DNA from: Actinomycetota bacterium
GTDB taxonomy: Bacteria; Actinomycetota; Actinomycetes; Propionibacteriales; Propionibacteriaceae
Length of the DNA: 64,000 bases
Assembly: GCA_020161755.1 (NCBI GenBank)
Contig: JAIUOS010000015.1
Location: 1 to 64,000, forward strand
Reading direction: 5' to 3'
The translations under genes were made by a program, and so were the position numbers. Numbering within the stretch: position 1 is the first letter of the stretch; the number at the start of each line of letters is the position of its first letter. Below the pieces are notes generated by a model. It was not told where the DNA came from, ran no database searches, and saw only the letters and a program-made list of their open reading frames with translations. Below are positions 57,169 through 59,693 of the stretch, in pieces.

Positions 57169-58167
57169 ATGGGGGGAATGCTCGTCACCGGCGGCGCCGG
57201 TTTCATCGGAACGAACTTCGTGCGGCTCGCGCTCGCTGAGGGCCACGACCGGGTGACGGTCCTGGACGCGCTCACCTACGCGGCGAACCGCACCTCGCTG
57301 GACGGGCTCGACCCGCACCGGTTCCGCCTCGTCGAGGGCTCGGTGTGCGACGCGTCCGTGGTGGACGAGCTGGTCGCCGACCACGACGTGGTGGTGCACT
57401 TCGCGGCCGAGTCGCACAACGACAACTCGCTGCGCGACCCGTCCCCGTTCGTCCAGACCAATCTGGTCGGCACCTACACGCTGCTGGAGGCCGTCCGGAA
57501 GCACGGCACGCGGTACCACCACATCTCGACCGACGAGGTGTACGGCGACCTCGAGCTGGACGACCCGGCGCGGTTCACCGAGTCGACGCCGTACAACCCG
57601 TCCAGCCCGTACTCGGCGTCCAAGGCCGGCTCCGACCTGCTGGTGCGCGCCTGGGTGCGGTCGTTCGGCGTGCAGGCGACGATCAGCAACTGCTCGAACA
57701 ACTACGGGCCCTACCAGCACATCGAGAAGTTCATCCCGCGCCAGATCACGAACGTGCTCTCCGGCATCCGTCCCAAGCTCTACGGGGCCGGGGCGAACGT
57801 CCGCGACTGGATCCACGTCACCGACCACAACCGGGCGGTGCTGCGCATCCTCGAGGCCGGACGCGTCGGCGAGACCTACCTGATCGGCGCGGACGGCGAG
57901 AAGGACAACAAGAGCGTGATCGAGCTGGTGCTGACCCTGATGGGTCAGCCGGCCGACGCCTACGACCACGTCAACGACCGGGCCGGCCACGACCTGCGCT
58001 ACGCGATCGACTCGTCCAAGCTGCGCACCGAGCTGGGCTGGGCGCCGACCTACCGTGACTTCGAGTCGGGCCTGGCCGCGACGATCTACTGGTACCGCGC
58101 CAACGAGGACTGGTGGCGTCCGATCAAGGCCGCGACCGAGGCGAAGTACGCGGCGGCCGGCCAGTGA
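57169..58167 (+). CDS. rfbB: dTDP-glucose 4,6-dehydratase
   Basis: 332 residues from ATG 57169; ATG 57178 is a close alternative. Rossmann motif [13 protein letters not shown], active-site [10 protein letters not shown] and Y-x3-K in [11 protein letters not shown], and [17 protein letters not shown] are all RmlB hallmarks. TAGGAT ends 8 bases before the ATG, so the start may be leaderless. Its stop overlaps the next gene by 4 bases. Confidence 0.96.
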
Positions 58168-59693
58168 GCCCCGACGCCAACCGAAACGAAAGGGGACAGT
58201 CCCCTTTCGTTTCGCAGCCGGTCCCTGAGGAGGGCTCGCGAGGCACGAGCGAGGCCGTCACGAAGGGCCAGCCGGACCAAGAGGGGACTGTCCCCTTTCG
58301 GTCCGCCGAGCTCACCGTTCGCCCCACCGCGATCCCGGGGCTGCTCGTCCTGACGCTGCCGCTGCACGGCGACGACCGCGGGTGGTTCAAGGAGAACTGG
58401 CAGCGGGCGAAGATGACCGCGCTGGGGCTGCCCGACTTCGGCCCGGTGCAGCACAGCATCGCGTTCAACACCTCGACCGGGGTGACCCGCGGGTTCCACG
58501 CCGAGCCGTGGGACAAGCTGGTCTCGGTGGCGACCGGACGCGTGTTCGGCGCCTGGGTCGACCTGCGTGCCGGCGACGGCTTCGGCGCCGTGGTGACCGT
58601 CGAGCTCGGCCCGGGGACGGCGGTGTTCGTGCCCCGCGGGGTCGGCAACAGCTACCAGACCCTGGAGGACCGGACGGTCTACTCCTACCTGGTCAACGAG
58701 CACTGGAGCCGCGACTCGCTCGCGGAGTACACCTACCTGAACCTGGCCGACCCGAGCGTCGCCGTCGACTGGCCGGTGCCGCTGGCCGAGGCGACCATCT
58801 CGCCCGCCGACGTCGCGCACCCCCAGCTCGCGGACGTGCGCCCGATGCGCCCGCTGCGCACGGTCATCGTGGGCGCCAACGGTCAGCTCGGACGCGCGCT
58901 GCGCGCCCTGCTGCCCGACGCCGAGCTGCTGGACCTCCCCGGGTTCGACTGCACGGACGCTGCGCTGGTCGACGCCCACCTGTGGCGGGGCGTCGGCACC
59001 ATCATCAACGCCGCCGCGTACACCGCGGTGGACGCCGCCGAGACCGCCGAGGGACGCCGGGCCTGCTGGGCGGCGAACGTGCAGGGCGTGGCGAACCTGG
59101 CCCGGGTCGCCGCCGCGCACCGGGCGACGCTGGTGCACGTCTCCAGCGACTACGTGTTCGACGGCACCGCCGAGCTGCACACCGAGGACGAGCCGTTCAG
59201 CCCGCTGGGCGTCTACGGCCAGACCAAGGCCGCCGGGGACGCCCTGGTCGGCCAGCTCGCCCGCCACTACCTCGTCCGCACCAGCTGGGTGATCGGCCAG
59301 GGCCGCAACTTCGTCGCCACCATGGCCGACCTGGCCGCCCGCGGGGTGTCCCCGTCCGTCGTCGACGACCAGTTCGGGCGGCTCACGTTCACCACCGACC
59401 TGGCGGCCGGCATCCTGCACCTGGTCACCTCCGGCGCCCCTTTCGGCACCTACAACCTCACGAACGACGGCCCGGTGCAGTCCTGGTGTGACATCGCCCG
59501 CGACGTCTTCGCCCTGTGCGGACGCGATCCCGCCGATGTCACCGGGGTGAGCACCGAGGAGTACGCGCGCGGCCGGGAGATGGCCCCGCGCCCCCGACAC
59601 AGTGCGCTCGACCTCACCCGGATCGGGGAGGCGGGTTTCACGCCGGCCCCGTCGTCGGTCCGCCTGCGCGACTACGTCGCGTCCCTCGGCTGA
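58164..59693 (+). CDS. Fused dTDP-4-dehydrorhamnose 3,5-epimerase / reductase (RmlC-RmlD)
   Basis: 509 residues from GTG 58164, the only plausible in-frame start after the rfbB stop. Residues about 47-225 are a RmlC cupin ([41 protein letters not shown]), lacking some standard epimerase residues. Residues about 230-509 are RmlD ([26 protein letters not shown]-x3-K in [11 protein letters not shown]). The first 46 residues are translated from an inserted palindromic repeat pair (58182-58305) and are not part of the family. Confidence 0.92.
58182..58214. repeat. 33-bp perfect palindrome within the RmlC-RmlD coding region
   Basis: Two 16-base arms (CGAAACGAAAGGGGAC and its complement) flank a central A at 58198. 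It shares the core AGGGGAC-x-GTCCCCTTTCG with a second palindrome 59 bases downstream. In-frame part of the N-terminal extension. Confidence 0.93.
58273..58305. repeat. Second 33-bp imperfect palindrome of the same family
   Basis: Same length and same GGGGAC-x-GTCCCC core (central T at 58289), with outer arms CGGACC/GGTCCG in place of CGAAAC/GTTTCG. The segment between the two has ends resembling common actinobacterial GGTCCCTGAG...GAAGGGCC repeats. It ends at the point where the RmlC domain begins. Confidence 0.85.

Follow-up and report, generated by a model that had tools for sequence, protein, structure and literature searches.

An N-terminal extension of an RmlC-RmlD fusion protein is probably made of short mobile palindromes, most likely moved by a RAYT-type transposase

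The N-terminal extension of an RmlC-RmlD fusion protein from a member of the Propionibacteriaceae probably consists of short mobile palindromes that inserted at the junction of rmlB and rmlCD, and a RAYT-type transposase is their most likely mover. The palindromes belong to a repeat family that is dispersed in the genome, a RAYT gene in the same genome is bracketed by the same palindrome, orthologues of rmlCD lack it, the reading frame stays open across both copies, and copies are found inside other genes as well. Taken together, these observations suggest that the elements are mobile, that the RAYT would move them, and that the extension is probably translated and may be neutral.

We analyzed a 64-kb stretch of DNA (the window), which contains the following features at the junction.

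57178..58167, + strand: rmlB (dTDP-glucose 4,6-dehydratase), from the open reading frame and our home-made gene call
58164..59693, + strand: rmlCD fusion gene with ~46 extra N-terminal residues, from Pfam and NCBIfam
58182..58214, + strand: palindrome 1, GAAAC-arm class, centre A, read as 11 residues; its core occurs 150 times in the genome
58220..58269, + strand: second repeat family (GGTCCCTGAGGA-stem-GAGGCACGAG-stem-GTCACGAAGGGCC), read as 18 residues; 16 copies in this genome
58273..58305, + strand: palindrome 2, GGACC-arm class, centre T, read as 11 residues

The stop codon of rmlB (TGA) overlaps the start codon of rmlCD (GTG) in the sequence GTGA, and the rmlCD frame is open from the GTG at 58164 across both palindromes. 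Palindrome 1 is perfect, with 16-nt arms around the central A of its 33 nt, and palindrome 2, also 33 nt long, has two arm mismatches around its central T. The two share AGGGGAC-A/T-GTCCCCTTTCG, and their outer arms are unlike (CGAAACGAAA vs. CGGACC). A previous sequence-only reading of this DNA had described two 33-base palindromes that share AGGGGAC within an open frame, and we confirm this. Its statement that they encode the first 46 residues is correct as the approximate excess over the shortest orthologue (L005, GTGAGTGAACTG), but 48 codons precede the conserved ELTV. In the 509-residue protein, Pfam places dTDP_sugar_isom at residues 55–224 and RmlD at 233–496. The first palindrome core starts 24 nt past the rmlB stop; the pair is a heteropair (GAAAC and GGACC classes), 91 nt apart and in inverted orientation (A, then T). 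The exact core matches the window twice. With up to three mismatches allowed, there were 6 matches vs. 6.7 expected, and we therefore rely on exact matches alone.

A genome-wide search for the palindrome, which the sequence-only reading had proposed, found 150 copies of the core GGGGACNGTCCCC in the 4,083,078-base genome, as compared to ~2.6 expected from base composition and none for the reversed control. On these counts, we rejected a chance palindrome. We fetched 144 of the 150 sites, which form 98 clusters. Their outer arms are of the GGACC class at 83 sites and of the GAAAC class at 42, with 19 unclassified. Neighbouring copies form 46 pairs, and 22 of these mix the two classes (14.8 expected from shuffling, p 0.005). 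Nearly all of the pairs (44/46) have a spacing of 31–66 nt; the wider spacing of the window pair exceeds the usual by about the length of the intervening repeat. As for the inverted pairing that typifies REPINs, the centre bases are AA or TT in 31 pairs, AT or TA in 14, and AC in one, and the orientation of these near-perfect palindromes is defined by that one base.

The hairpin repeat between the two palindromes is unrelated to them. The sequence-only reading had likened this spacer to another repeat family, and it is indeed a second dispersed family, with the pattern GAGGMACGAG-N(3-12)-GTCACGAAGGGCC. There are 16 copies in this genome (G000) and 28 in another genome of the genus (G017); of the 28 other members, three have 1–5 copies and 25 have none. 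A related copy at L164:1425-1479 has an inner stem that differs on both sides. The reading spoke of "a mobile palindrome": the element is dispersed and probably mobile, but there are really three adjacent elements from two families.

To compare rmlCD across relatives, as had also been suggested, we used 15 fetched loci from the same genus, leaving out those of G009 and G012, which also match rmlCD. rmlB adjoins rmlCD in 13 of the 15. The reading held that an extension carried by all orthologues would argue against an insertion, and the exact palindrome core is absent from all 13 informative orthologues. The gap between rmlB and the RmlC core is 5–47 nt in 12 of the 13, 178 nt in G017, and 143 nt here. 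We rejected an ancestral N-terminal domain: it is absent from the orthologues, and its pieces are repeats that are found elsewhere. In the near relative G017 (L002), the 178-nt gap at this junction contains the second family; its frame with respect to RmlC is that of the window, but an ATG follows it. G026, which pairs with G000 in the MetH tree described below, has a gap of 26 nt without this family.

Our genome encodes two proteins with the Y1_Tnp domain. The first RAYT gene (G000:C10:95424-95750; ORF L156:1448-2431, minus strand) is intact and has the motifs NHVH and YVWNNP; Y1_Tnp (51 bits vs. a cut-off of 23) is the only Pfam domain reported. Neither transposase reaches the cut-off of 80 for REP_Tyr_transpos from NCBIfam (NF047646), which counts against our explanation; they score 69.3 (E 3e-19) and 66.5 (E 2.3e-18). 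Querying the PDB with the sequence of the RAYT returned no matches at E 0.01. The palindrome type of the window also brackets the first RAYT, where it forms an inverted repeat of 34 nt that contains GGGGACAG on each side of the gene. According to excerpts of PMC3733652, the terminal repeats of TIRYTs share GGGGWSAS, and GGGGACAG fits this consensus. The second RAYT (L157:1941-2744, also on G000:C10) is flanked by a different repeat, GGGGACGGTTCT; its terminal repeat is GGGGACGGTTCTCCGATCCGCC. One of the palindromes that bracket the first RAYT also encodes, in frame, that protein's own C-terminal tail. In sequence, the palindrome family agrees with the terminal inverted repeats that this genome's RAYT/TIRYT-type HUH transposase has, and this RAYT or a close relative would most likely be the mover.

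Across genomes, a Y1_Tnp gene is present in 14 of 30 members of the genus and in 16 of all 92 genomes. The 16-mer AAAGGGGACWGTCCCC is found in 6 of the 92 (including our own), all of which are from the same genus and contain a Y1_Tnp gene. Among named records, the best matches are mostly to Propionibacteriaceae, including Propionicimonas. Just three of these six (G000, G002, and G028) have a detected RAYT that is bracketed by the window core. G001, G014, and G027 contain the palindrome, yet their detected RAYTs lie near other GGGGAC repeats, which counts against our preferred explanation. A scan for inverted repeats around the RAYT of G014 found none. RAYTs that are missing from G001, G002, G015, and G017 may reflect assembly gaps, because each of these assemblies has 220–460 contigs. 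In the fetched stretches of G028, most of the 24 sites have CCCGCAG-type arms, which resemble the sequence that flanks a RAYT of that genome.

We examined where the elements lie relative to genes by using a home-made gene caller (codon log-odds, trained on our genome and then applied to G028 as well). Of the 98 clusters, 40 are between tandem genes, 34 between convergent genes, 11 inside ORFs, 10 between divergent genes (one partly overlapping an ORF), and 3 are undetermined. The median distance from an element to the 3' end of a gene is 18 nt (80/111 are within 30 nt), and to the 5' end it is 75 nt (6/60 are within 30 nt). These distances agree with the placement of REPs just 3' of genes that is described in excerpts of PMC3733652. 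At trpB-trpA, as at rmlB-rmlCD, the start codon overlaps the upstream stop (ATGA), and a palindrome core lies 29 nt on. If the habit of settling 3' of stop codons acts at overlapping gene pairs, it could explain the N-terminal insertions.

The RmlCD case is not isolated: 11 of the 98 clusters lie within called ORFs. This count includes L212 and L228, which are likely false extensions of the start, with a plausible ATG after the palindrome. MetH has a palindrome in a linker between domains (at residue 518 of the portion fetched), Maf has two in the middle of its domain (the Pfam match spans residues 7–220 over 184 profile positions), and TrpA has one at its N-terminus. In L191 (G000:C5, ORF 683-2704), two palindromes link an ABC transporter ATPase to an amidohydrolase within one ORF, which is possibly a gene fusion made by the elements. 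In L237 (G000:C32, ORF 496-2892, minus strand, 799 codons), the Pup-ligase reads through one palindrome into an FKBP-type protein; by eye, an ATG and then a lipoprotein-like signal sequence can be seen in the FKBP part. Palindromes also encode the tails of a UvrC/exonuclease-like protein, of a lycopene-cyclase-like protein, and of the RAYT itself. None of the 24 fetched sites of G028 is inside a called gene, which weighs against our explanation and implies that copies within genes are not frequent in every genome.

The MetH, Maf, and TrpA sites were picked because of the inserts in G000, but their states in relatives are unselected. We aligned MetH from 26 genomes, including our own. G000, G001, and G002 have the same palindrome in the linker, and other palindromes are found there in G017, in G015 (two adjacent), and in G021 (two adjacent). 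In all, six genomes of the genus have palindromes of at least four types in the MetH linker. For the remaining 20, the protein alignment reveals no insert of this kind, and none was found in the linker DNA of the 9 of these 20 that we inspected. In a MetH tree that excludes the linker, the partner of G000 is G026, which has no insert; G017, G015, and G001 come next. The support at those nodes is 75–91, and several deeper nodes have support of 27–60. Palindrome-like inserts are also present in Maf of G017 and in TrpA of G001, G015, and G017, and weakly in TrpA of G021. The Maf loop of G001 (L248) has an in-frame insert of another repeat-like sequence (CCCTTCGACAGGCT...), which resembles none of the RAYT flanks closely (its best score is 13).

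We compared 19 in-gene segments, without gaps, to the flanks of 21 RAYT genes. A RAYT from the same genome ranked first for 11 of the 19 segments and for 7 of the 8 MetH segments. For palindrome 2, the best of the 21 flanks is that of its own genome's RAYT. Palindrome 1 matches this flank in the core only and at the third rank (19 vs. 28 for the RAYT of G002), which counts against our explanation. The genome's own RAYT also ranked third for the second Maf palindrome, which is of the GAAAC class like palindrome 1. Also against our explanation, the own RAYT was not first for MetH, TrpA, and Maf of G001 or for TrpA of G015, G017, and G021, so for TrpA the rule fails in all four relatives tested. 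A gapped comparison was noisier: among the six MetH carriers, it placed the own RAYT first only in G002, G015, and G021.

How might the palindromes have become part of RmlC? The two 33-nt palindromes would be non-autonomous elements, moved through single-stranded hairpins by a RAYT/TIRYT-type enzyme, and such elements would settle preferentially just 3' of stop codons. Given the GTGA overlap, an element 24 nt past the rmlB stop would land within rmlCD and become the N-terminus of RmlC. Only in-frame insertions would survive, and the palindrome is largely stop-free; its product would be a disordered tail that lies outside the fold. At 109 of the 144 sites, no frame of the six contains a stop, as compared to 44.5% of random 33-mers drawn from these loci. 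In an AlphaFold2 model (25 sequences), pLDDT is below 50 at residues 1–47 and 71–76 and the first strand begins at residue 51, although the low values in the tail may partly reflect the aligned homologues, which lack the extension. The idea that a mobile palindrome is tolerated in frame at a protein's N-terminus apparently holds: the element is dispersed, probably mobile, and absent from orthologues.

It is unlikely that the palindromes are instead an untranslated leader (a regulatory or mRNA-stabilizing hairpin), with RmlC starting at a rare codon, either ATC at 58332 or CTG at 58341. Excerpts of PMC3733652 do caution that translation may begin downstream of many N-terminal REPs, which would then be extragenic; as single-stranded DNA, the stretch has a strong fold (z -5.4, for a DNA rather than an RNA fold); and in G017 the second repeat is upstream of an ATG at the same junction. 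But after 58164, the first in-frame ATG, GTG, or TTG is at 58413, which is already within the RmlC domain, so the downstream start that the sequence-only reading named as evidence against itself does not appear among these codons. A start at CTG 58341 (codon 60) would lose the predicted strand at 51–54 and the invariant I57 and G59, and the overlapping GTG is the start position in orthologues too, such as L005. A different question is whether each protein site had one ancient insertion that was later overwritten by each species' palindrome (conversion), or whether insertions occurred repeatedly and independently. The four or more palindrome types among the six MetH linkers would fit overwriting, as would the tree, where the same-type carriers G000, G001, and G002 are not grouped and G026 has no insert. 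Similarly, X. campestris and X. oryzae have REPs at roughly the same position of recB, but of different kinds (excerpts of PMC3733652). However, several of the deeper MetH branches are weakly supported, and the two adjacent copies in each of G015 and G021 would also agree with insertion. We rather doubt a single ancient insertion per site. We tentatively suggest, as a quite possible synthesis, that the MetH linker, the TrpA N-terminus, the Maf loop, and the RmlC N-terminus are recurrent docking sites that are colonized or overwritten by successive RAYT families. Each species would write its own transposase-cognate peptide into one shared position of these enzymes, and overlapping operon genes would turn the 3'-of-stop habit into N-terminal extensions.

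The sequence-only reading compared the palindromes to the elements that insert into genes of Rickettsia. The outcome is alike, as both are palindromic and lie in frame within several genes, but kinship is not supported. It is very improbable that our palindromes are a separate selfish family that is specialized for coding regions: 87 of the 98 clusters lie at least partly outside called ORFs, mostly just 3' of genes, the unit is 33 nt instead of the ~150 bp given for Rickettsia elements in excerpts of PMC10969869, and copies of this palindrome bracket a RAYT-type gene. The sequence match of the family is to the terminal repeats around that RAYT. Membership in the GTAG or CGTC REPs was also rejected, as neither tetranucleotide is enriched: GTAG/CTAC is near 6 of the 144 sites (12% at random) and CGTC/GACG is near 48 of the 144 (51% at random), both below the random rate.

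In-frame insertion itself is already known. Excerpts of PMC3733652 describe in-frame REPs inside genes of several species, including some tnpAREP genes. The identity of the elements in our genome is well supported, and their mechanism is more conjectural. In the open-licence literature that we searched, part of it as excerpts, we found no in-gene TIRYT-type repeats, no actinobacterial case, and no match between a species' inserts and its own transposase; nor did we find an open-licence paper that joins RAYT, Actinobacteria, and repetitive extragenic palindromic. By word counts, "Actinobacteria" and "intragenic" are absent from the text of PMC2817692. The in-frame palindromes of Rickettsia are well described, yet the literature covered, partly in excerpts, names no mover. 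In the present genome, in-frame palindromes occur alongside a candidate enzyme whose gene is bracketed by the same repeat, and the genus offers filled, empty, and differently filled orthologous sites. This makes the origin of coding insertions, the responsibility of the transposase, and the neutrality of the peptides testable, and the overlap of genes offers a simple reason for the N-terminal cases.

Among known systems, the Rickettsia palindromic elements (RPE) are alike in their in-frame insertion into unrelated protein-coding genes, but the unit here is much shorter, mainly intergenic, and tied to a candidate transposase. The GTAG and CGTC REPs and REPINs share the location just 3' of genes, the dimers and heterodimers, and some in-frame intragenic copies, but our sites are not enriched for either tag. 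As described in excerpts of PMC3733652 and PMC6006769, the TIRYT/TIRtron group (TnpAREP subclass 2.1; RAYT group 1) shares the HUH-Y1 type with the Y---NP motif, the bracketing terminal inverted repeats with GGGGWSAS (here, GGGGACAG), and dispersed families of terminal inverted repeats (TIRs) with dimers. In contrast to that group, the elements in this member of the Propionibacteriaceae are near-perfect 33-nt palindromes in ~150 copies with two main arm classes, and some of them lie in frame inside genes, which those excerpts report for GTAG and CGTC REPs rather than for TIR repeats.
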